Source: Fulvivirga imtechensis AK7 (GTDB lineage: Bacteria; Bacteroidota; Bacteroidia; Cytophagales; Cyclobacteriaceae). Taken from it: a stretch of 64,000 nucleotides of DNA. Below are positions 51,847-63,150 of the stretch, piece after piece. The stretch covers positions 1 through 64,000 of the forward strand of contig NZ_AMZN01000009.1 of assembly GCF_000331535.1 (NCBI RefSeq). Direction: 5' to 3'. The notes below the pieces were generated by a model, which ran no database searches, was not told the DNA's origin, and saw nothing but the letters and a program-made list of their open reading frames with translations. Made by a program: the position numbers and the translations under genes. How positions within the stretch are numbered: position 1 is the stretch's first letter; each line of letters opens with the position of its first letter.

Positions 51847-51877
51847 TGTTTACTTTTAAAAAGTTTTAACACTAACT
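51847..51877 (+). promoter_or_regulatory. Shared TGTTTAC-N16-CACTAACT motif, site 1 (sigma gene)
   Basis: TGTTTAC at 51847-51853, 16-base spacer, CACTAACT at 51870-51877. Its right half ends immediately before the GTG start of the sigma factor gene. The upstream side is A/T-rich. Spacing is exactly the same at three other places (53525, 54965, 62695). It looks like an ECF-sigma promoter for autoregulation. Confidence 0.7.
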
Positions 51878-51878
51878 A

Positions 51879-52454
51879 GTGAAGGAAGACAGCAACAACA
51901 TCGTTCAACGGATCAGGCAAGGCGACTCCTCCTGTTTGGAGGAATTGGTCATTGCTTATAAAAACTATTGTACCAATGGCTTAAGAAAGAAAGTGGGCTG
52001 TACGGGAGAAGAAGCGGAAGAGTTGTTTATCGATGCCTTGCTGGAGCTGAGAGATAAAATACTTGAAGGTAAGCTGGACAGGCTGATCAATACCAAGAGT
52101 TATATTTTTGGTATTTGTCAAAATATGTGGTTAGCACAAAAAAGACAGGAGCGAAAAACCCTGGAAAAAAAAAAGGATATCGAAATATACTATAGTGCTT
52201 ACCTCGAGAATGATTTTTTATTTTCTCAAAATGGTGCGGATTATAAGATGCAATTAATAGAAATAGCATATCAGGCACTTGAAAGCATAGATGAAAAATG
52301 TCGCATGATCATCAAATATTTCTATCTTGAGAAAAGAAGCATGGACGAAATTGCTGAATTACTGGATTTTGCAAGCCCCGATGTGGCTAAGACATCAAAA
52401 TCAAGGTGTTTCAAAAAATTAGTGGATAAAGCAAAAGAACTTGAGCAAAGCTAG
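51879..52454 (+). CDS. Sigma-70 family (ECF-like) RNA polymerase sigma factor
   Basis: A 191-residue two-domain sigma factor. Region 2 covers about residues 10-85 (INTKSYIFGICQNMWLAQ segment). Region 4 has the HTH at about 135-185 (MIIKYFYLEKRSMDEIAELL). It lacks regions 1.1 and 3, as in ECF factors. The GTG start at 51879 is needed to keep the first region-2 helix (IVQRIRQGDSSCLEELVIAY). The next gene begins directly after its stop and encodes a membrane protein that could be its anti-sigma. A shared promoter-like motif ends right at this gene's start, so autoregulation is likely; leaderless transcription is possible. Confidence 0.87.
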   Translation: MKEDSNNIVQRIRQGDSSCLEELVIAYKNYCTNGLRKKVGCTGEEAEELFIDALLELRDKILEGKLDRLINTKSYIFGICQNMWLAQKRQERKTLEKKKDIEIYYSAYLENDFLFSQNGADYKMQLIEIAYQALESIDEKCRMIIKYFYLEKRSMDEIAELLDFASPDVAKTSKSRCFKKLVDKAKELEQS

Positions 52455-53174
52455 ATGTCAATTAAAGATGAACATAGGGCGCTAATAGACAGCTACCTCA
52501 GCAATACGCTGAGTGAAAGTGATAAAGCTGATCTGGTACGACTTCTTGAAGAACACCCCGAACTGGAAGAGTTGGTACTCGAGGAGAAAAGGATAGTCAC
52601 TGCCCTGCAAGCAAGTGAAAAGGCTCAACTCAAAAAACACTTAAAAACAGTAGCAAACAATACACCCCAAAAATCGTCCGGCTTTTTTCCTGCCTGGTGG
52701 CTCGCGGCCGCTTCAGCCACACTGATTGTTTCAATAGGCTATTTCTTCTATTTGAATAACAGTTCGCTGGAGATAACATTTAATGAATACTACGAACCAT
52801 ATCCCGCCATCTCAGTTCAAAGAGGACAAATTACGGATATCAACAGCGCTCTAAAATTATATAGCCAGGGCAAGTATAAAGAAGCAATCGAGGCATTCGG
52901 TGACCTGACACTTTCAGACAACCCTACTTACTATCTTTACCTGGGCAACTGCTATTTACAAACAAAGGACCCCAATAAGGCCATTGAAATTTTTAAGACG
53001 GTAAATAGAGAAAGCAACGACACCATTTTAAAACAAAATGCTCAGTGGTATCTGGCACTGGCGTATCTTAAAAAAGAAGACCTACAGCAAACAAGGAAAA
53101 TACTGAAAGAGATTATTCAGAATGAAGGTATCTATGCCGAACATGCAGAAAAGCTGCTCGGGAAGCTGGATTGA
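52455..53174 (+). CDS. Membrane-anchored TPR protein, probable anti-sigma factor
   Basis: A 239-residue protein whose ATG follows the sigma stop codon with no gap. Residues 1-75 are helical and acidic (IDSYLSNTLSESDKADLVRLL), resembling the cytoplasmic sigma-binding part of membrane anti-sigma factors. A transmembrane helix lies at about 79-98 (WWLAAASATLIVSIGYFFYL). The C-terminal part (about 125-235) has three TPR-like repeats (LKLYSQGKYKEAIEAFGDL; YYLYLGNCYLQTKDPNKAIEIF; LALAYLKKEDLQQTRKIL) presumably in the periplasm. Position and topology suggest control of the upstream sigma factor; there is no direct motif proof. Confidence 0.75.
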   Translation: MSIKDEHRALIDSYLSNTLSESDKADLVRLLEEHPELEELVLEEKRIVTALQASEKAQLKKHLKTVANNTPQKSSGFFPAWWLAAASATLIVSIGYFFYLNNSSLEITFNEYYEPYPAISVQRGQITDINSALKLYSQGKYKEAIEAFGDLTLSDNPTYYLYLGNCYLQTKDPNKAIEIFKTVNRESNDTILKQNAQWYLALAYLKKEDLQQTRKILKEIIQNEGIYAEHAEKLLGKLD

Positions 53175-53589
53175 ACCTTTTTGGAGACGGCATTAAAATA
53201 TTCACCACCTACAAGCATGTAAGTAATTAGGCGATATTTGCTTAAAAACATTCCCTTTCCATACGATTTTCTTATATAAACAAGCGTTTCTCATTTCAGA
53301 TCAAACCGAAAGCGGAGACATTATAATCTGGTTAACTTATTTGTAATTATTGGCCATTCGGTACAGCGCCTCAAATTTTAGCAGACTGCATCAGATGTTT
53401 TTTATAGTTCAGTGACTTATGTGTGTATGGCTTAATCCACACAGCTCTGTTTTAATCCACGGAAAAAAATACCGCCTGGCCACTTACCTCATGATGTAAG
53501 AATTTTATTTTTTTCACAAAAACCTGTTTACCTATTTCCATTAGCGACACTAACTTTTTAAAGACAAGCCAAAACTTAAAAGACCCTTT
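53175..53589. other. Intergenic region upstream of the first small HTH gene
   Basis: 415 AT-rich bases with no open frame worth calling. The functional content is the promoter-like motif at 53525-53555 preceded by T-rich stretches; the rest is unassigned. Confidence 0.6.
53525..53555 (+). promoter_or_regulatory. Shared TGTTTAC-N16-CACTAACT motif, site 2 (HTH gene 1)
   Basis: TGTTTAC 53525-53531, CACTAACT 53548-53555, 34 bases before the ATG at 53590. The region after it (TTTTTAAAGAC) is also similar to that following site 3. Confidence 0.75.
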
Positions 53590-53868
53590 ATGAAGTTTGA
53601 ACAGTACCTCAAGAACATCGAAAGACTCGATCAATTGATCAGACTAAAAAATACAGGTTGCCCCGACAGCCTTGCTTCCAGACTCCACCTTTCCAGAAGC
53701 ACCTTATACAGGTACCTGGACCTTATGAAGTCAATGGGCGCACCTATTACTTATGATCTGTTCAGAGAGAGCTTTATCTATGAGTACCCTGTCAATTTCG
53801 CCATGGGTTTTCACGAGGTCTATTGTCCGGAGGAACATCCCTTTTGCCTGGAAGCTAACACTTTTTAA
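53590..53868 (+). CDS. Small HTH protein 1
   Basis: A 92-residue protein whose N-terminal ~65 residues form an HTH_11-like DNA-binding domain (IERLDQLIRLKNTGCPDSLA, then RLHLSRSTLYRYLDLMKSMG). It matches the second small HTH protein at 55021 in sequence and layout. The C-terminal extension (YPVNFAMGFHEVYCPEEHPFC) is unique and has two Cys. It is likely the regulator of the following kinase-like gene and perhaps of the RiPP genes. Driven by shared motif site 2. Confidence 0.72.
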   Translation: MKFEQYLKNIERLDQLIRLKNTGCPDSLASRLHLSRSTLYRYLDLMKSMGAPITYDLFRESFIYEYPVNFAMGFHEVYCPEEHPFCLEANTF

Positions 53869-53970
53869 ACAGCAGTCTCAGCTTTTGAGACTACCGGCTT
53901 TTAATGTTGCTGTAGATTCAGCCTATTCAGGCAACACACTTGAAAATATTTGAATTGAAAAATTTATCCA

Positions 53971-54738
53971 ATGGAAGCATTACAACACACAGAACCCGTT
54001 AAAAATCATTGCATAAAAATGTACGAGTTAGATCAGAACAAAGTGTATAAGGTGGACAGCATACCCAATTCATACGTACTAAAAAAGCACCCGAATGCAT
54101 TGCTAAATGACATTTCATTTAACTCACCATACATCGTAAAATACTACAAGATCATCTACGATATCAATACCGAACATATTTACACGGTAATGGAGAAGGT
54201 AAAGGGCGCTTCAATGGATCAACTGCTACAGCATGGCTGCCCTTCTTATGATGTTATCAAAAACATGATATTTAAGATATTAAAAGGCTTTGAAGTGATC
54301 CACCAGGCTGATGTCCTTCACCGTGATGTTTGCATGAAGAATATTTTTGTAGAATTCTCCTTCCCTACCTTCACTCCAAAGGTCTCAGGCTTTAACATCT
54401 TCGAGCCTTATCACCTGGATAACAGGATCAATACCAGTGACGCTGCTTACCTGGCGCCTGAGGTATGGAACTATTCGGATTACAACGTAAAGTCAGAGAT
54501 ATGGGCCATCGGTATGCTGGTCTATAATATGCTGGATGCTAAATTTAAATTTTCGGCAAGTGCTAAGCACTACAAAGATGCGTTGATAGAGCTGCCCCGG
54601 TGCTTTAGAAATTTCACCCGGGTAGCTTTGGCAGAAAATCCTGCAGACCGGCCAAACTCCATATCAGAACTGGTCGGTATTCTTTATGAGGATCTGGATG
54701 AAGCCGATAAGATTTCGTTTAGGAATCTGGCGGAGTAG
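53971..54738 (+). CDS. Kinase-like protein lacking the DFG aspartate
   Basis: A 255-residue eukaryotic-type protein kinase fold. The catalytic loop HRDVCMKN is at residues 117-124 with Asp119 and Asn124 in the canonical spacing; APEVW is at 162-166; EIWAIGMLVYNML is in the F-helix region. The glycine-rich loop is poorly formed, Lys38/Lys39 are the only candidates for the ATP lysine, and the metal-binding DFG is replaced by SGF (139-141). It is therefore either a pseudokinase or a divergent kinase that does not use the usual Mg2+ site. It lies between two small HTH genes and before the RiPP cluster. Confidence 0.75.
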   Translation: MEALQHTEPVKNHCIKMYELDQNKVYKVDSIPNSYVLKKHPNALLNDISFNSPYIVKYYKIIYDINTEHIYTVMEKVKGASMDQLLQHGCPSYDVIKNMIFKILKGFEVIHQADVLHRDVCMKNIFVEFSFPTFTPKVSGFNIFEPYHLDNRINTSDAAYLAPEVWNYSDYNVKSEIWAIGMLVYNMLDAKFKFSASAKHYKDALIELPRCFRNFTRVALAENPADRPNSISELVGILYEDLDEADKISFRNLAE

Positions 54739-54964
54739 TGTTATTAGCAGATTTTCCTTTTTTTCGGAGGCTATTTTTAGGTATTTTTCGAGATTGAAGT
54801 CAGGTAATTTTATTTATCCTTCAAATTAATCTACAACTTATCTAAGTGATTTAGCATGGGAATCACTTTTTGGTGTCTCATCGGTCAGAATAGTTATAGC
54901 CTAACAACTGCTACTCCTATAGCATCCGCTAGCACTCTTTATAAAAGGAATTTTTTAATAAAAA

Positions 54965-54995
54965 TGTTTACCTAATACTAAAGCTGTCACTACTC
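54965..54995 (+). promoter_or_regulatory. Shared TGTTTAC-N16-CACTA motif, site 3 (HTH gene 2)
   Basis: TGTTTAC 54965-54971, then exactly 16 bases, then CACTACTC (54988-54995); the first five bases of the right half match the other sites. It lies 33 bases before the ATG at 55021. The 282 bases between the kinase-like gene and this HTH gene hold no other signal. Confidence 0.65.
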
Positions 54996-55020
54996 TTTAA
55001 GACCTAACACCTTTTGCATT

Positions 55021-55218
55021 ATGAAATATTCCGAGTATTCGAATGTTTTAGATAGGATTATCTTCTTAGCAGAACGAAAAATGACCGGCACACCAAATGA
55101 GCTCTCTCAAAAATTGAATGTTTCACCAAGTACGATTAAGAGGATGATCCGGACTCTAAAGGATAAAAACATTCCAATTACCTACTGTCGCTACGAAAAT
55201 TCATATATAATACAATAA
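55021..55218 (+). CDS. Small HTH protein 2
   Basis: A 65-residue protein, nearly all HTH domain (LDRIIFLAERKMTGTPNELS, then QKLNVSPSTIKRMIRTLKDK). It is paralogous to the protein at 53590 but without its C-terminal extension. It sits 137 bases before the graspetide-type precursor gene, likely in the same transcript, and may regulate it. Confidence 0.75.
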   Translation: MKYSEYSNVLDRIIFLAERKMTGTPNELSQKLNVSPSTIKRMIRTLKDKNIPITYCRYENSYIIQ

Positions 55219-55354
55219 ATTATTTGAATATTATTTTCAAAGATCATGATTTGATCTTATTGCATATTAATATTGTATAAAGTTATGGCGCCATATTAGG
55301 CGGAAACCGAAAAGCCTCAAATAGAGTAGGTAACAATACAGATAAATCATTATT

Positions 55355-55543
55355 ATGAAAAAGTCCTTAAAAAAATTTGAATCTGAGACTTTAGGAAAGT
55401 CTATTTTGTTTAACACCATGTGTAAAAAAATTCTGGGAGGAAGTACAACTTCAAATGGCCACTCCACATCATCAACAGGATCGGACTGCGATGATGCAAC
55501 AAGTGATCAGGATGTCGATGTGAAAACTCCAGAGATGTATTAG
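55355..55543 (+). CDS. RiPP precursor peptide, grasp-with-spasm type
   Basis: A 62-residue peptide with a leader of about 29 residues ending KKILGG, then a core that starts STTSNGHSTSSTGSD and continues with an Asp-rich block (CDDATSDQDVDVK). The Ser/Thr donors followed by acidic acceptors are the composition expected for omega-ester (graspetide) cross-linking by an ATP-grasp enzyme. The gene is 37 bases upstream of that ATP-grasp gene. A GGGGGC/GCCCCC hairpin lies between them, which would lower maturase expression relative to precursor. The leader cleavage site after GG is inferred. Confidence 0.75.
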   Translation: MKKSLKKFESETLGKSILFNTMCKKILGGSTTSNGHSTSSTGSDCDDATSDQDVDVKTPEMY

Positions 55544-55550
55544 TTGTATA

Positions 55551-55566
55551 GGGGGCATTTGCCCCC
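55551..55566 (+). terminator. Attenuator hairpin after the graspetide-type precursor
   Basis: GGGGGC-ATTT-GCCCCC, followed by TTACG without a T run. It is a short, very stable stem between precursor and maturase genes, suited to partial termination or mRNA protection. Confidence 0.65.
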
Positions 55567-55580
55567 TTACGCAAGAAGAC

Positions 55581-56558
55581 ATGATTGTTATTTATAGTAT
55601 ATCTACTGACGGAACCACCACAGAAGTTATCAATTGGTTAAAGTCAAAAACTAAAATTCCCGTTTTAAGGATCAATACAGATTTAAACAACGTAGCCTTT
55701 GTCCGCTATGATGAACAAGAAAGGGAATTTTTAATATCAAAAAACAACAAAGTTTTTAACTTATTTGACGCTAAAAGTTTTTGGTACAGAAAAGGTGGAC
55801 ACCTTTATTTAACTGAAATCAACACTGAGATCAAACCGTATGATGGATTATATGCAGGTTTACTGTCAAAATTAAAATCGGAACAGGTTTCTCTGAACCA
55901 TTTTATTAAGAGATTCTTGGAGAGAGCATCAACAATAAGCTTGGGATCCGCCTTCAATGCTAGTCCTAACAAATTAAATGTTTTAGATATAGCAAAAGAT
56001 CACGGATTAGCAACCCCCATTACCTTTATTATTGACAATAAAAACGATCTTAGGACTAAGATAAGCCAGTATGGTGAATTAATAACGAAAGCAATATCCG
56101 ATGGTATCTACCTATTTAATCGAGATTATTCTTTCTATTCTTACACAGAACTCGTAAACGAAAACGTCATAAAATCTTTACCGGACAAGTTCTTTCCCTC
56201 TTTATTTCAAGTCAAAATCAAGAAGAAATTTGAAGTTCGTACATTTTTAATTAACAGAGAATTCTATTCTATGGCAATATTCTCACAAAGAAACCGCCAA
56301 ACAGAAATTGATTTTAGGAAATATGATGGAAAGAAACCGAACCGATGTATACCTTTTGTACTACCGAATCACATCAAAGCAAAATTGCTCAAAGTGGCCG
56401 GTGAACTTAAATTAAATACGGGATCGGTTGATCTCATTGTTGACTCACATGATCAATTCATATTTTTAGAAATCAATCCCGTAGGTCAATTTTCAATGGT
56501 TTCTTATCCATGTAATTATTATTTAGAAGAAAAAGTTGCCGATTATTTAATACCCTGA
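55581..56558 (+). CDS. gwsG: ATP-grasp peptide maturase (grasp-with-spasm system, GwsG-like)
   Basis: A 325-residue ATP-grasp ligase of the MvdD-like group. The metal-binding site FLEINPVGQF holds Glu297 and Asn299, and the family's N-terminal segment includes KSFWYRKGGHLYL. Such enzymes activate Asp/Glu side chains with ATP and join them to Ser/Thr hydroxyls or Lys amines of a precursor peptide. The downstream SPASM-domain protein identifies it as the ATP-grasp member of the system annotated as grasp-with-spasm. AT-rich codon use compared with the rest of the window suggests a recent acquisition. Confidence 0.88.
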   Translation: MIVIYSISTDGTTTEVINWLKSKTKIPVLRINTDLNNVAFVRYDEQEREFLISKNNKVFNLFDAKSFWYRKGGHLYLTEINTEIKPYDGLYAGLLSKLKSEQVSLNHFIKRFLERASTISLGSAFNASPNKLNVLDIAKDHGLATPITFIIDNKNDLRTKISQYGELITKAISDGIYLFNRDYSFYSYTELVNENVIKSLPDKFFPSLFQVKIKKKFEVRTFLINREFYSMAIFSQRNRQTEIDFRKYDGKKPNRCIPFVLPNHIKAKLLKVAGELKLNTGSVDLIVDSHDQFIFLEINPVGQFSMVSYPCNYYLEEKVADYLIP

Positions 56559-56563
56559 TTGAA

Positions 56564-56770
56564 ATGCAAAAAGAAAATAAAGTTCGAATATCAGATAAAG
56601 ACAAGAAATCACTACCTGTATTCTGCTATTCTATATACTTCAACGAAATGATTTCTCGCGAAATCGAAAATAAACTTTTCACCTATGGACAAAATAGCGA
56701 AAGCATATACGGCAGATATAGTGCCACAAGACCAATTTCTAAAATCATCAAAATGGAGAACCTAAAATGA
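56564..56770 (+). CDS. Small protein between ATP-grasp and SPASM genes
   Basis: A 68-residue protein, unrecognised. It is charged at the N-terminus (MQKENKVRISDKDKKSLPVF) and ends ISKIIKMENLK; the middle has FCYSIYFNEMISREIENK. It starts five bases after the ATP-grasp stop, and its stop overlaps the SPASM gene's ATG by four bases, so it is translated as part of the operon. It could be an accessory or leader-recognition factor, or a second substrate peptide; Ser/Tyr/Arg richness in SIYGRYSATRP does not decide. Confidence 0.6.
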   Translation: MQKENKVRISDKDKKSLPVFCYSIYFNEMISREIENKLFTYGQNSESIYGRYSATRPISKIIKMENLK

Positions 56771-57891
56771 ACTATAAACTCTCTGATCAATACCTACTTT
56801 TATTTACTGATTGTTTACTGACTAAAGGAGTTGTAAACGCAACAATATGTGATACTACAAGAGGAACAATAGATATAATCCCTGCAGCATATTATGAACT
56901 TTTAGAAGAATTGAAAGTTTATCCACTTTCACATGTTTATGATAAATACAATGAAGGTACTCATGAGCATATTACTGATTTTATTAGATTTTTATTAAAA
57001 AAAGAGTATGCAATTTTACTAAATGACAAAAAATTTTTCCCGGAAATAAAACGGGAATGGCGGTCTCCAGAAAAAATTAATAATGCAATAATCGATATCA
57101 ATTCTCTCAGGCTCGATTTTAGGAGTATAATTGAACAGCTAGATGATCTAAATTGTCAGGTCATACAATTGCGAATATATAGTAACCTATATTCACTTGA
57201 TGAATTATCAATGATCATTAATTTAATGAGAGATACTTCAATAAAAGGCGTAGAAATATTAATTAAGTATGCACCGGAGTATCAGGAGAAAGATTATATC
57301 CTTTTTTTTGAAAGTCATATATTAATTTCCTCACTTCATATACATTCTGCGCCCATTGATAAGACTGTTGGCATTGATTTTGGATATAAGGGCAAGTCTA
57401 AAACAGCTTTGGCTTCAATTAAAACCAAAATCTATTTTATCAAGGAGCAAATTGTAGATTCGACAAAATGTGGAGAAATAAAAAAAAGTTACTTTTGCTT
57501 AAACAGTGTAAGCGACATTATGCATAACTCATGCTACAATAGTTGTCTGAACAAGAAAATTGCTATAGATGTCAATGGAGAAATAAAAAACTGTCCTTCA
57601 ATGACCAAAAGCTTTGGAAATATCAACAAAGATACATTACAGGAGGTTTACAGTCAATCGACATTTAAAGAGTTATGGAACGTAACCAAGGACCAAATTG
57701 ATGGTTGTAAGGTATGTGAGTTTCGTTTGGTATGTTCAGACTGTCGTGCGTTTTTAGAAAACCCACAAAATAAGCATTCAAAACCTCTAAAGTGTGGTTA
57801 TGATCCGTATACTGGAAAATGGCATGAATGGACATCCGACCACCTGATAAAACGTAGAGCAATGCAATACTATCAATTGAAACAACAATGA
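56767..57891 (+). CDS. gwsS: SPASM-domain peptide maturase without a radical SAM motif (GwsS-like)
   Basis: A 374-residue protein. The C-terminal third has the cysteine pattern of a SPASM domain: Cys256, Cys260, Cys276, Cys314, Cys317, Cys323, Cys326 and Cys343 (CYNSC, NGEIKNCPSMT, CKVCEFRLVCSDCRAF). The N-terminal part has no CxxxCxxC radical-SAM cluster, which fits the GwsS family. It probably binds Fe-S clusters and works with the ATP-grasp partner on the precursor peptide; the reaction is unknown. A stretch of this gene is duplicated at 59013-59072. Confidence 0.88.
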   Translation: MNYKLSDQYLLLFTDCLLTKGVVNATICDTTRGTIDIIPAAYYELLEELKVYPLSHVYDKYNEGTHEHITDFIRFLLKKEYAILLNDKKFFPEIKREWRSPEKINNAIIDINSLRLDFRSIIEQLDDLNCQVIQLRIYSNLYSLDELSMIINLMRDTSIKGVEILIKYAPEYQEKDYILFFESHILISSLHIHSAPIDKTVGIDFGYKGKSKTALASIKTKIYFIKEQIVDSTKCGEIKKSYFCLNSVSDIMHNSCYNSCLNKKIAIDVNGEIKNCPSMTKSFGNINKDTLQEVYSQSTFKELWNVTKDQIDGCKVCEFRLVCSDCRAFLENPQNKHSKPLKCGYDPYTGKWHEWTSDHLIKRRAMQYYQLKQQ

Positions 57892-58607
57892 AAAGGCATT
57901 TTTACGTCATCTATGTATTATTAGCTTCATGTACTATGACTACCAACAACGAAGGATTTCAATGGAATTATGAAGCCAAGATTGAGAATAAAAACAACAG
58001 GGAAGACTCTACCAAATGGGATCTTGAGAACTTTGAAATAGATCGGAAAGCCAAAGATCAGCCAGGAGTCTTTCCATATCCAAGATATGATTTGGTAGCA
58101 CCTAATAGCTTTAATGGGTTGGGATATGGGGGAGAATTTTCAGGCATCAATCTTAATAATAAAACCTTTGTTTACAACTACTATTATGTTAATAAAAATG
58201 TTGTGAATGAAAAGTTTATTGATGGATTAGAACATGATGTCTTCTTTACTATAGTCGTCTCCACTGATTTCGTGGATGAGCGTAACTATAGTCACATTTC
58301 TGCCGACCTAAGCTCCAGAAATCACCCCAACTACCTTGCACAGGGATTCATTAAAACGTCAAATAACATCATTCAATATTCTGCTTTTATAACGGGCGAC
58401 AGAGATTCTTATGCAATCATTAACTCTAATTTATTTGATCTTTCGTTGGGGCGATTGATTCTGATAGTTCCCCAAAAAGATCGATCCCTTCGCACAAAAC
58501 AACTTACACTTCCTCTTCTAAGCAAAGACGACCTGGATGGCTACATTCAGTCTCTATTAATGGAGAAGGATGTAATAATGTTATATCAAAATGGCAATGC
58601 AATTTAA
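57888..58607 (+). CDS. Lipoprotein of the RiPP operon, unknown
   Basis: A 239-residue protein overlapping the SPASM gene by four bases. The N-terminal signal has a lipobox (LLASC at residues 11-15). The mature part is soluble and rich in Asn/Asp/Tyr and predicted beta (FVYNYYYVNKNVVNEKFIDG). No known family is recognised. The position, fourth after precursor, ATP-grasp and SPASM, suggests an export or immunity role in the periplasm, but this is inference. Confidence 0.7.
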   Translation: MKRHFYVIYVLLASCTMTTNNEGFQWNYEAKIENKNNREDSTKWDLENFEIDRKAKDQPGVFPYPRYDLVAPNSFNGLGYGGEFSGINLNNKTFVYNYYYVNKNVVNEKFIDGLEHDVFFTIVVSTDFVDERNYSHISADLSSRNHPNYLAQGFIKTSNNIIQYSAFITGDRDSYAIINSNLFDLSLGRLILIVPQKDRSLRTKQLTLPLLSKDDLDGYIQSLLMEKDVIMLYQNGNAI

Positions 58608-59152
58608 AAACGATGTGCGAAATTCCTTCATTCATTTACCGCCCTCAAGATTACTTGGCACAGAATCTAACTTACAGCAAAGTAGGCGAATCATTTGACA
58701 AGATCATGTAAAGAATAAAGCGAAATTTAACAATAGCACTGGCTTTTCTAATAGCTTATGCACTATTTCACAACTGGGACGCTATTAAACAGATATTATA
58801 TCAATGAATGATGAACTATTAAGATAAAATGACATAAGCACATTTCTAGGGAAATCGGTCACAATGGCTGTGGTCCTAATGGGGTTGGTAATTGTGACGA
58901 CAGGAAAATACCTTTAAGGTGTATAAAAACAGCAATCAGCAACAATTTTATTATATTTTGTAGGGATGAATCTGCTCCCTCTATATCTTTATTCATTGAT
59001 CTCATTTCCTGGTGGAGAAATAAAAAACTGTCCTTCAATGACCAAAAACTTTGGAAATATCAACAAGGATACTCCTAGTTTGATCTTGGATTTTTCAATT
59101 TATTTGGGATTGGCGAAATATCGAGCTAGAAATGAAAATTTAAAGCAGCTAT
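58608..59152. pseudogene. Degraded RiPP-gene remnants
   Basis: 545 bases without an intact gene. Positions 59013-59072 match 57576-57635 of the SPASM gene in 58 of 60 bases. A fragment at 58852-58900 reads EIGHNGCGPNGVGNC without a start codon and may be a lost peptide or enzyme end. A start-less stretch at 58712-58807 reads as a small basic plus hydrophobic peptide (RNLTIALAFLIAYALFHNWD). All three suggest a decayed second copy of the cluster. Confidence 0.6.
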
Positions 59153-62100
59153 ATGCCTAGGCGAGTATTTTTTATGCTATTTTCAACACTATGGAGTTTA
59201 TACTTTTCTACTCTTCAAGCAGAGCGTTTAGATAGTTTATTTCAAAGTGCTCTGCTCAACTATAACAATGGGCATTATGATTCCTGCATCTCCATTCTAG
59301 AACCCCAGTTGCCGACTATTAAGGATAATAATCGAAAAATTAGTTTTCTAAATCTGCTTGGTAAATGTTATAAAAGAAGCTTCTTATTAGAAGAAGCGCG
59401 TAAATACTTTCAGAAAGCTATTCAATTAAATGAATCCACCAATAATTCCTATTATGTAGAAAGTATTCTAGGTATGGGTGACACCTACGCGCTGGAACAT
59501 AAGCTTGACTCCACATTATACTATACCCAATTGATAGCTGAAGCTAACGCCAATACAAATAAATATAAAGGTCATTATTTATTTAATTTAGGCAAATCTT
59601 ACCTATCCACCAACAGTGCAAGAGCAGAAGACCTGTTTGTTTCCGCATTAAAATCATTTGATCCACGTGATGACGAAATTTTAATTTTATATGTATGGTT
59701 GGCTGATATGTTAATCGAAGAAAATAGAATCGATGAAGGATATTCCTATATTAGAGAGGCACTTTTAATTCAAGAAAAATTTTACCCTGCCAATAAGATT
59801 CTTCTGGCGTACATTCATCTTGAAATCGGCTTCTATTACCATGCAAAGGGAGATCTAAAAGATGCAATTAAGAGTTACAAAGATACTGAGACAAGGTTTT
59901 TAAGGAATGATAGCACTATAGCTGGTCAATATTATCTAAGTGAAGTTAACCGCCTAATGAACCTTTCCTATGAATTGCTCGGAGACTACGACAATGCTCT
60001 TAGATGTGGTATGAAAAATTTGGTTTTAAAAGAAAAGCTCTCACTTACCAACAAATACAAAATTAGTGAGGCTCTTTTGGGTCTAGCCAAGATATACTAT
60101 CATATAGGTATATCTTCAAAAGCTTTGACTTTAATTGAACAAGCTATCCCCTTTTTCATCGAATCTAAATCTCAAATTTACCTCGCGCAATGTTTTCTTA
60201 TTAAGGGAGCCATATACTTTGAGTCCAGGCACTTTGAAGAGTCAATAATTCAATATGAGTTGGCCAACAGCGCGATTGCTAATTCTAATATTTTAACTAG
60301 TGTGCCATTTATAGTTAATTTCAATAAATCTATGTCTCTTCTCCATATGAGCAAAACATACGAAGCTAAACTTCTATTGGACCAAACCATAACTGACTAT
60401 ACCGAAATTTATGGTGAACGTATTCAACTCGCCAGCTATCTGATGCTACAAGGTTTAATTTTTCAGAAGTTGAAAACATATGATTCAGCAGATTATTCAT
60501 ACAAAAAAGCATTAAAATTATTTACAGACAACAAAATATCTGAGCATCGATCTTTGACATGGATTTTAAACATTTATTTATCATTTCTAATAGATCATCA
60601 CAGCCTGCAAGATGTAGAATATCTCTTAAAAAGAGCATTCAAAAGTAATGCGAGCAATTACGACCTGCAATCGATAGCAACCTTAGACGTAGAAAATTCA
60701 CGTAATGTGTACGAAAGCATTACTACATGCTATTTAGCAGCAAAGTATTTCCAAAAAACCTACCAGTACACAAAAGATAAGAGATACCTTTTAAAATCTA
60801 TAGAGTTAATAACTTCAATTGTTAACTTAATTGAAAATAAAAAAAAATCATACCAGTACCGAATTAGCGATAAATTGTTTAGGGAAAGATTTCATAATAA
60901 AATATATATCCAAGCTATCAGTGTTATCTATGATATAGTCACTTTAGAAAATAACTCCAACTATCTATCTAACGCATTTATGTTCATAGGCAAAGGGAAA
61001 TCCTCCGTTTTGCTGGAAAATTTGAATGAAAATATCGCTTTGGAATTCAGATCGATACCAGACAGTACAAGAATCCAAGAGTCAAGTTTAATAAGTCAGC
61101 TTCTTTATTTGAAAACCTCAATAAAAAACCTTGGCGAGAAAGCCAATGAACTTTCTCAATTAAACTCGTTTAAAACTGAATTAATTGCTGCTGAAATAAA
61201 ATACGACAGCCTCATCACCCACCTCGAACAAAACTACCCCGAATACTACAACCTCAAATACAACTTCGATGTTCTCTCCATCAAAGACGTGCAGCAAAAG
61301 CTAAAAACCAATGAAGCCCTGATCGAATACTTCAATGGAGAAAATCAAACCTATGCCTTCACCATCACCAAAGACACTGCTCACTTTCAAACATTACCTA
61401 TGGTTGAAGAGGCAGGGATAGAAGGATTTAGAGCTGCACTTAATCCGGATTTTATTAACAAAGAGCCTGGTGAGGTTTTTACTGAATATACTGAATCGGC
61501 TTATCATCTTCATCAAAAAATTCTGGCTCCCTTGTTGGAAAATATTGATAACACCAAAATCAATACGCTAAAGATCATCCCTGATGGACTTTTGAGCCTG
61601 GTCCCATTTGAAACGCTGATCACAGCTCCTCACCAGGGAGCAGTTGGCGACTACAAATCGCTGTCTTACCTGATGAAGCAGTTCAATATCAGCTATGGCT
61701 ACTCCGCCACCTCCCTATTCAAAATGAGCGAAATGAAAAAAGAGGACATGGGTAGCAATGTACTGGCATTTGCACCAACTACATCGCTGTCATCAGAAAC
61801 TGCGAGTCTCAACCCACTCCGATGGAACCAAAGCGAAATTGATGACATCACACAGTTCTTTAACACCGATACGGCTGCAGGATTACTTGCTACAGAATCT
61901 AGCTTTAAGGAAAAAATACAGCAATACCCTATCGCGCACCTGGCCATGCATGCAGTGGTGAACAATGAAGACCCCATGTACTCCAAACTCCTTTTTGCTC
62001 CTCCTCAGGATACGCTGGAAGACGGCATGCTGCACACTTTCGAGTTGTACAACATGCGTCTGAATACACAAATGGTGGTACTCAGCGCCTGCAACACCGG

Positions 62101-62491
62101 CTATGGAAAGCTCCAGAAGGGTGAAGGTGTGATGAGCCTTTCAAGAGCTTTTGCCTATGCAGGATGTCCGTCAATCGTCATGAGCCACTGGTCGGTGGAT
62201 GATAAAGCTACTGCTACGCTGATGAAATATTTCTACCAGCACCTGGCTGAGGGAGAAGACAAAGACGTAGCCCTCAAAAATGCCAAGCTGGATTTTTTGA
62301 ATAACAGCTCTCCACTTTACCACCACCCCTATTTTTGGAACAATTTTGTGGTGCTGGGGGATGTGAAGCCGGTGAGGAAAACGGACCATGTCACATATTG
62401 GATATTGGCTATATTCGTAGGCTTGGTCTTGGTAGTTTTCGCCTACTATGCCCTGCTAAAGCATCGTGGAAGAATAGGGATTTTAAAGTAA
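59153..62491 (+). CDS. TPR-CHAT domain protein (caspase-like peptidase fold)
   Basis: An 1112-residue protein with a signal-like N-terminus, a long helical TPR region (about residues 25-560), a coiled linker and a C-terminal CHAT domain (about 750-1065). The expected catalytic dyad is His933 (HLAMHAV) and Cys980 (LSACNTGYG). A transmembrane helix (about 1082-1102) follows the CHAT domain. CHAT proteins are caspase-like proteases, often next to sigma factors and TPR genes in Cytophagales. Base composition changes near 61200: the 5' part is very AT-rich, the CHAT part resembles the rest of the chromosome, so the gene is mosaic. Confidence 0.88.
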   Translation: MPRRVFFMLFSTLWSLYFSTLQAERLDSLFQSALLNYNNGHYDSCISILEPQLPTIKDNNRKISFLNLLGKCYKRSFLLEEARKYFQKAIQLNESTNNSYYVESILGMGDTYALEHKLDSTLYYTQLIAEANANTNKYKGHYLFNLGKSYLSTNSARAEDLFVSALKSFDPRDDEILILYVWLADMLIEENRIDEGYSYIREALLIQEKFYPANKILLAYIHLEIGFYYHAKGDLKDAIKSYKDTETRFLRNDSTIAGQYYLSEVNRLMNLSYELLGDYDNALRCGMKNLVLKEKLSLTNKYKISEALLGLAKIYYHIGISSKALTLIEQAIPFFIESKSQIYLAQCFLIKGAIYFESRHFEESIIQYELANSAIANSNILTSVPFIVNFNKSMSLLHMSKTYEAKLLLDQTITDYTEIYGERIQLASYLMLQGLIFQKLKTYDSADYSYKKALKLFTDNKISEHRSLTWILNIYLSFLIDHHSLQDVEYLLKRAFKSNASNYDLQSIATLDVENSRNVYESITTCYLAAKYFQKTYQYTKDKRYLLKSIELITSIVNLIENKKKSYQYRISDKLFRERFHNKIYIQAISVIYDIVTLENNSNYLSNAFMFIGKGKSSVLLENLNENIALEFRSIPDSTRIQESSLISQLLYLKTSIKNLGEKANELSQLNSFKTELIAAEIKYDSLITHLEQNYPEYYNLKYNFDVLSIKDVQQKLKTNEALIEYFNGENQTYAFTITKDTAHFQTLPMVEEAGIEGFRAALNPDFINKEPGEVFTEYTESAYHLHQKILAPLLENIDNTKINTLKIIPDGLLSLVPFETLITAPHQGAVGDYKSLSYLMKQFNISYGYSATSLFKMSEMKKEDMGSNVLAFAPTTSLSSETASLNPLRWNQSEIDDITQFFNTDTAAGLLATESSFKEKIQQYPIAHLAMHAVVNNEDPMYSKLLFAPPQDTLEDGMLHTFELYNMRLNTQMVVLSACNTGYGKLQKGEGVMSLSRAFAYAGCPSIVMSHWSVDDKATATLMKYFYQHLAEGEDKDVALKNAKLDFLNNSSPLYHHPYFWNNFVVLGDVKPVRKTDHVTYWILAIFVGLVLVVFAYYALLKHRGRIGILK

Positions 62492-62694
62492 CGCATGTTA
62501 TTAGCAGCCAAAATTCAGAATGGAAATAAACCATTCATTATTACAATATAGCTCATACCTATTCGGCCTTTTGAAAAAGTCGGTTCATGATCCATTAATT
62601 AATGTAAAATGTTGAACGTTTACTTGCCCCACATAATCACATAATCTCGCATAGCAATACTTGCTTCATGGTTTAATCCTTTGAATTATACAGA

Positions 62695-62725
62695 TGTTTA
62701 CATAAACCTAAATGCTACACTAACT
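62695..62725 (+). promoter_or_regulatory. Shared TGTTTAC-N16-CACTAACT motif, site 4 (lanthipeptide precursor)
   Basis: TGTTTAC 62695-62701, exactly 16 bases, CACTAACT 62718-62725. It gives a predicted leader of about 200 bases before the ATG at 62929. Confidence 0.75.
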
Positions 62726-62810
62726 ATAGAAGGCCATAGAAATTAACTCTATTTTTATAAATATGAATGCTTTTTATAGTTTGATTTTACCGCTAAACAA
62801 GAAAATTATA

Positions 62811-62871
62811 GAGTCCGATAATACCGGACTCGTACGCCCTAACTTTAGCACAAGTTCTGTACGTACGAACT
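62811..62871 (+). promoter_or_regulatory. Two dyads in the lanthipeptide leader
   Basis: First: GAGTCCG (62811-62817) with CGGACTC (62825-62831), 7-base loop. Second: AGTTC-T-GTACGTAC-GAACT (62853-62871), palindromic with one bulged T. Candidates for an RNA leader structure or a regulator operator. Confidence 0.4.
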
Positions 62872-62928
62872 CAAGCGGTTGTCGAAAAGCTTTATTAGAG
62901 TAGACAAAGAATTAAACCAAACTTAAAA

Positions 62929-63150
62929 ATGAAAAAAGCTCGTAAAAAACTGACACTGAAAAAAGACATGATCACTTCTATGTCGAACCATGAAATCGCA
63001 ACTGTAAAAGGTGGATTCTTATCTATCGGACATACTTGTAGCGATAGAAACAAGTGTGAGAGAATGAACACCAGCCACTGGGGCAATGGTTGTTCAACCA
63101 ACAGTTGTAACCCACACTACAGCACAGAGGGTACATGTCCTATTGAGTAG
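62929..63150 (+). CDS. Class I lanthipeptide-type precursor peptide
   Basis: A 73-residue peptide. The leader (residues 1-29) reads KKLTLKKDMITSMSNHEI then ATVKGG, the standard Bacteroidota GG leader. The core contains five cysteines (GHTCSD, RNKCER, GNGCST, NSCNPH, GTCPIE), with Ser/Thr around each, so up to five lanthionine bridges are possible. A 13-base-pair hairpin and a LanC gene follow. It resembles pinensin-type Bacteroidota lanthipeptides in organisation; the core itself I do not recognise. Confidence 0.82.
   Translation: MKKARKKLTLKKDMITSMSNHEIATVKGGFLSIGHTCSDRNKCERMNTSHWGNGCSTNSCNPHYSTEGTCPIE

Follow-up and report, generated by a model that had tools for sequence, protein, structure and literature searches.

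A likely self-activating sigma-factor promoter in Fulvivirga imtechensis AK7, repeated before the genes of two peptide systems

Does a short word that recurs in one region of the Fulvivirga imtechensis AK7 genome represent the promoter of a sigma factor encoded beside it, and does it bring the genes of two RiPP systems under the control of that sigma factor? The region lies within a stretch of 64,000 nucleotides, here called the window. An earlier note on this DNA had described four copies of TGTTTAC and CACTA, always 16 bases apart, and had read them as a sigma-factor regulon over RiPP genes. The genes of the locus, identified with NCBIfam and Pfam models, and the four motifs are arranged as follows.

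51847..51877, + strand: promoter-like motif 1, TGTTTAC-N16-CACTAACT, before the sigma gene; 0 mismatches; same place in 3 congeners
51879..52454, + strand: ECF-type sigma factor, 191 aa; TIGR02937 above cutoff
52455..53174, + strand: putative membrane anti-sigma protein with TPR domain; TPR matches, anti-sigma models below cutoff
53525..53555, + strand: promoter-like motif 2, before HTH1; exact; equivalent site in 3/3 congeners
53590..53868, + strand: small HTH protein 1 (HTH1), 92 aa; HTH_11
53971..54738, + strand: Hanks-type protein kinase, 255 aa; Pkinase 89.4 bits
54965..54995, + strand: promoter-like motif 3, before HTH2 and the grasp-with-spasm genes; exact core, CACTACTC
55021..55218, + strand: small HTH protein 2 (HTH2), 65 aa; paralogue of HTH1
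55355..55543, + strand: candidate grasp-with-spasm precursor, 62 aa; placed 5' of the maturases, without family match
55581..56558, + strand: grasp-with-spasm ATP-grasp maturase; TIGR04192 338 bits, cutoff 230
56767..57891, + strand: grasp-with-spasm SPASM-domain maturase; TIGR04193 325 bits, cutoff 175
57888..58607, + strand: possible lipoprotein (by eye); without family match
59153..62491, + strand: TPR-CHAT (caspase-like) protein, 1112 aa; CHAT 210 bits
62695..62725, + strand: promoter-like motif 4, 5' of the lanthipeptide precursor; exact
62929..63150, + strand: class I lanthipeptide precursor, 73 aa; narrowly misses the cutoffs of the leader models; LanC and LanB genes next on the contig

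An exact scan of the window finds TGTTTAC-N16-CACTA four times and no more, always on the + strand (at 51847, 53525, 54965 and 62695), against 0.0053 copies per window expected from a second-order Markov model. When CACTA is sought within 45 nt 3' of any TGTTTAC on either strand, a spacing of 16 is the only one that occurs, in four cases. Sites 1, 2 and 4 match at all 15 bases of TGTTTAC plus CACTAACT, and the second half of site 3 reads CACTACTC. The scan thus bears out what had been noticed by reading, namely four copies with one spacing, three of them complete at the 15 fixed bases, and (for exact copies) none elsewhere in the window. At up to three mismatches the window contains 55 matches against a shuffle mean of 56.3, which is the chance level, so that weight can be placed on exact or near-exact matches alone.

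The motif is rare beyond the locus. The whole 6.7-Mb genome contains six exact copies, two of them beyond the window, against three for the reversed control, and a scan of the same genome at one mismatch gives no excess (23 matches versus 30 for the reversed pattern), arguing that the signal is local and consists of the cluster in the sigma locus. A genome-wide regulon is not supported by these counts, and the genome-wide scan that the earlier note had proposed points to a rare, local motif and not to a regulon spread over the genome. Across 14 genomes there are 23 exact matches versus 16 for the reversed control; leaving aside the genome of the window (G000), 17 exact matches remain, five of them in sigma loci, and 8 of the 11 examined among the 12 matches outside sigma loci fall within an open reading frame (L075 was left out). 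One extra copy in the F. imtechensis genome (G000:C4, L137 3963-3990) is exact and lies 25 nt 5' of a long gene for a kelch-type secreted protein, which could be a fifth target; genes related to it occur in congeners.

The protein encoded at 51879 scores 47.2 bits with TIGR02937 (cutoff 42.9), the model of the sigma-70 ECF superfamily, and 20.6 bits with the Pfam model for region 4, below the gathering score of 25.7. The proposed order of motif and gene, with copies before the sigma gene, two HTH genes and the lanthipeptide precursor, holds, with the refinement that CACTA of motif 1 ends only 4 nt 5' of the sigma GTG, while motif 4 ends 206 nt 5' of the precursor ATG. The short distance would make the sigma mRNA leaderless or nearly so, and this was counted against a promoter. 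Many ECF promoters carry AAC in the -35 element, and the absence of AAC from the -35 half of the TGTTTAC motif was likewise counted against.

Conservation in other species argues on the other side. Orthologues of the sigma factor at 60-65% identity are found in 3 of 14 congeners searched (G001, F. kasyanovii; G008, F. marina; and G014), and G009 has a homologue at 39% identity. In all three orthologous loci the motif lies 4 nt 5' of the sigma start, with 0-1 mismatch and N16, and a further copy precedes HTH1. The kinase gene is preceded by the motif in two of the three (G001 and G014); the kinase gene of the window has no motif of its own. Each of the eight congener sites counted has N16 and no more than one mismatch and is oriented like the gene that follows it, although the sites are not all independent, because the spacer of the kinase site is common to G001 and G014. 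GTTTAC and ACTA are invariant over the 12 sites in four Fulvivirga genomes. A refined 14-base motif has nine exact matches in these four whole genomes, every one of them in the sigma locus, and at one mismatch 21 matches (12 in the locus) versus 18 for the reversed control; the refined motif was built on the same sites, so that these counts are partly circular and do not constitute independent evidence. The sigma gene of the window and all three congener orthologues are thus preceded by a two-block promoter whose spacing does not vary. Since the motif is kept before the same sigma gene in relatives, the arrangement looks like a small self-activating circuit, and the motif is likely to be the promoter of the local sigma factor, which would regulate its own gene.

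Related two-block layouts are also found before more distant members of the sigma family. Upstream of 20 such homologues, a set in which some genomes are close and two proteins are identical, GGTTAC occurs in 17 cases (0.36 expected from mononucleotide shuffles), and in 11 of those 17 it is followed by N16-GTATWAA. A sigma paralogue in the F. imtechensis genome, at C153, has GGTTAC-N16-GTATAAA. TGTTCAC-N16-GACTAA stands upstream of the sigma gene in G042 and G046; the whole G042 genome has only two copies of this word, at the sigma gene and at the divergent gene. By eye, TGTTTAC-N17-CATTA is present in G036 and at a second, CHAT-linked sigma gene of both G001 and G014. On the sigma tree these promoter classes are clustered, with 8 changes against a shuffled mean of 18.8 and a value as low in 0 of 200 shuffles, a result to which near-copies contribute. 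On the opposing side, ten more nearest-clade loci (L082-L086, L094, L095, L098, L100 and L101) lack an exact TGTTTAC upstream of the sigma gene, and at the five other sigma homologues of the F. imtechensis genome (L009-L013) all three -35 words are likewise missing upstream. The congener loci together with these related -35/N16/-10 layouts uphold the earlier reading of an autoregulated sigma promoter; its extension to a regulon over RiPP genes proved only partly right, as described below.

The grasp-with-spasm set contains the paired ATP-grasp and SPASM maturases, both above model cutoff, and the lanthipeptide precursor is followed on the contig by matches to LANC_like (151.8 bits; LanC) and Lant_dehydr_N (454 bits; LanB). 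The C-terminal domain of LanB extends over two overlapping frames (L077 14505-17656, beyond the window), a frameshift or assembly error. The grasp-with-spasm segment has a GC content of 33%, versus 44% for positions 1-48000 of the window. Directly 5' of the grasp-with-spasm precursor, at 55297-55332, is a match to the cis-regulatory Rfam family RF02914 (DUF805b; 50 bits, gathering 35.6), and no match at gathering score was obtained in L133, L078, L079 or L080. The stretch of about 200 nt that separates motif 4 from the lanthipeptide precursor (62730-62931) is predicted to form a strong hairpin and folds better than most shuffles (z -2.27, with 2 of 200 as good). Just 5' of the CHAT gene, at 59013-59072, is a 60-bp near-copy of part of the SPASM maturase gene with 96.7% identity, which looks like a recombination scar.

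Searches of the congener stretches L078 (12 kb), L079 (18.5 kb) and L080 (18 kb) yielded no homologues of the grasp-with-spasm and lanthipeptide proteins, and the RiPP operons are probably lineage-specific recruits. The same genome has a second grasp-with-spasm cluster, on contig C116, with maturases above cutoff and no motif at up to one mismatch in the 11 kb read. These two results argue that the motif marks the locus and not RiPPs as a class. They also bear on the alternative that the sites are indeed promoters of this sigma factor, but that the copies near RiPP genes are remnants of a duplicated HTH promoter, with the RiPP genes using other promoters. Site 3 lies before HTH2, a paralogue of HTH1; site 4 is separated from its precursor by 206 nt and a 46-aa open reading frame; the cis-regulatory RNA match next to the grasp-with-spasm precursor and the motif-free second cluster fit the same explanation. 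However, sites 3 and 4 match all 12 core positions even though no homologues of these RiPP genes turned up in the congener loci, arguing that the copies were not simply inherited with the core, and successive genes between 55355 (the precursor) and 58607 are separated by at most 40 nt. We consider remnants unlikely. Judged from the sequence, it is plausible that the RiPP operons belong to the regulon of this sigma factor and that both peptide systems are jointly controlled in this strain.

A second alternative takes the motif as an operator for the small HTH proteins instead of a sigma promoter. Two of the four copies are followed by HTH genes, each of the four Fulvivirga loci has HTH1, and one of the two other exact copies in the genome (C12) lies about 150 nt 5' of an HTH paralogue. 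The C12 copy, however, is inside a 90-aa open reading frame and may be a chance occurrence, and the motif is non-palindromic. At 23 HTH loci outside the sigma locus and C12, no copy with 0-1 mismatch is present in the 250 nt upstream, in a count for which 30 of 38 HTH rows had loci and in which HTH2 and one C12 paralogue are not separately included. Related sigma genes likewise have the two-block layout upstream, including those of L081 and L087, where no HTH gene was detected, and an operator of this kind appears quite improbable. Chance similarity or a common repeat would accord with the chance-level counts at one to three mismatches, but can be practically dismissed in the face of four exact copies (0.005 expected) with one spacing on the same strand and of conservation in other species. 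The promoter of the local sigma factor is therefore the preferred reading.

What might control the activity of the sigma factor itself? The protein encoded next to it (52455) has a helical N-terminus, one apparent transmembrane helix at about residues 80-101 (by eye, from sequence and model) and a C-terminal TPR domain, and its predicted model has a mean pLDDT of 84.8. Anti-sigma family models match it only below cutoff, and the 50 matches listed by a Foldseek search with the model showed no folds other than TPR-type ones and did not reach E <= 0.001, so that its assignment as a putative anti-sigma factor rests on position, topology and weak model matches. The TPR-CHAT protein has an apparent signal peptide and a C-terminal transmembrane helix (by eye), and an alignment of 8 proteins shows the CHAT-motif His and Cys unchanged in every one; a search of solved structures with the CHAT domain gave no match.

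The conserved core of the locus consists of the sigma factor, the TPR-type putative anti-sigma factor and the HTH protein, with the kinase and the TPR-CHAT protease present in some. The gene order in G014 is sigma, TPR protein, HTH1, kinase and TPR-CHAT; that in F. marina is sigma, TPR protein, HTH1 and TPR-CHAT, with no kinase found at the locus, and in F. kasyanovii no CHAT gene was found within the 12 kb read. In both congener loci that have it (L079 10349-13674 and L080 3955-6556), the CHAT gene is split over two reading frames. Among five Fulvivirga genomes, a CHAT match lies within 10 kb of 8 of 18 sigma homologues (about 0.43 expected), although three of these eight look like orthologues of one another. 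The corresponding figure for nine genomes is 14 of 32 listed sigma homologues (about 0.95 expected), four of these genomes having been chosen after CHAT had already been seen there. The 3.7-Mb genome of G036 has 65 CHAT-domain matches at E <= 1e-20, a striking expansion.

Starting from the motif, its conservation, the gene order and the CHAT linkage seen in these sequences, the following mechanism can be proposed, and we regard it as the probable explanation of the locus. The repeated word would be the -35/-10 promoter recognized by the ECF-type sigma factor of 51879, which would switch on its own operon and the neighboring HTH (and kinase) genes. The result would be a self-amplifying local regulon, apparently shared by four Fulvivirga genomes. 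The grasp-with-spasm and lanthipeptide genes of this strain would have come under the same promoter, and, because it precedes both sets, they should be induced together. The TPR membrane protein next to the sigma factor is presumed to hold it at the membrane, and we hypothesize that the TPR-CHAT protease cleaves this protein and thereby frees the sigma factor.

Release of an ECF sigma factor by proteolysis is the principle of RseA/DegS-type systems. The Fulvivirga locus resembles these in having a putative membrane inhibitor beside an ECF sigma factor and an exported protease as a possible trigger, and differs in that the protease belongs to the CHAT family and the anti-sigma domain is only putative. 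Release of the RseA/DegS type is also mentioned in a report on CRISPR type III-E (PMC10028731), according to which Csx29, a TPR-CHAT protease, cuts the protein Csx30 that inhibits an ECF sigma factor (CASP-sigma), and three sigma motifs within the CASP-sigma locus itself are read as positive autoregulation. Both loci combine a TPR-CHAT protease, a sigma inhibitor (in Fulvivirga a putative one) and an ECF sigma factor, and the Fulvivirga TPR-CHAT protein shares the His/Cys dyad of Craspase. Unlike type III-E, no Cas7-11 (gRAMP) gene is present among the Fulvivirga locus genes scanned; the Fulvivirga inhibitor has an apparent transmembrane helix as well as a TPR domain, and its CHAT protein looks exported.

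An ECF sigma factor is known to control the lanthipeptide cluster of microbisporicin, where the sigma/anti-sigma pair is MibX/MibW and a shared promoter word, GAACC-N15-GCTAC, precedes several operons, including that of the sigma factor itself (PMC4973701). Both systems thus encode an ECF sigma factor and a (putative) anti-sigma factor with a lanthipeptide cluster and have a promoter word common to several operons. MibX/MibW, however, come from an actinobacterium and use another word, the precursor operon mibA lacks an ECF promoter, and the passages on the cluster mention no CHAT protease. Literature searches found nothing that joins CHAT domain, sigma factor, anti-sigma and Bacteroidetes, or grasp-with-spasm and sigma factor; for TPR-CHAT with sigma factor, the papers found all concern CRISPR, judging by titles, and a sigma-releasing role came up for the CRISPR system only.

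A broader generalization can be offered tentatively, as one that could easily prove wrong: a CRISPR-independent family of membrane TPR-CHAT protease, TPR anti-sigma factor and ECF sigma factor may recur in this bacterial family, each copy reading a TGTTYAC-type promoter of its own and keeping a small regulon nearby, which in this strain would have taken in peptide-antibiotic operons. At the level of the locus, an uncharacterized sigma factor gains a predicted promoter and a list of targets, and TPR-CHAT proteases become linked to ordinary ECF signaling in Bacteroidota. For F. kasyanovii, qPCR of biosynthetic clusters is described in passages of PMC12565237 that make no mention of RNA-seq. For F. 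imtechensis, the arrangement suggests a possible handle for inducing two peptide clusters.
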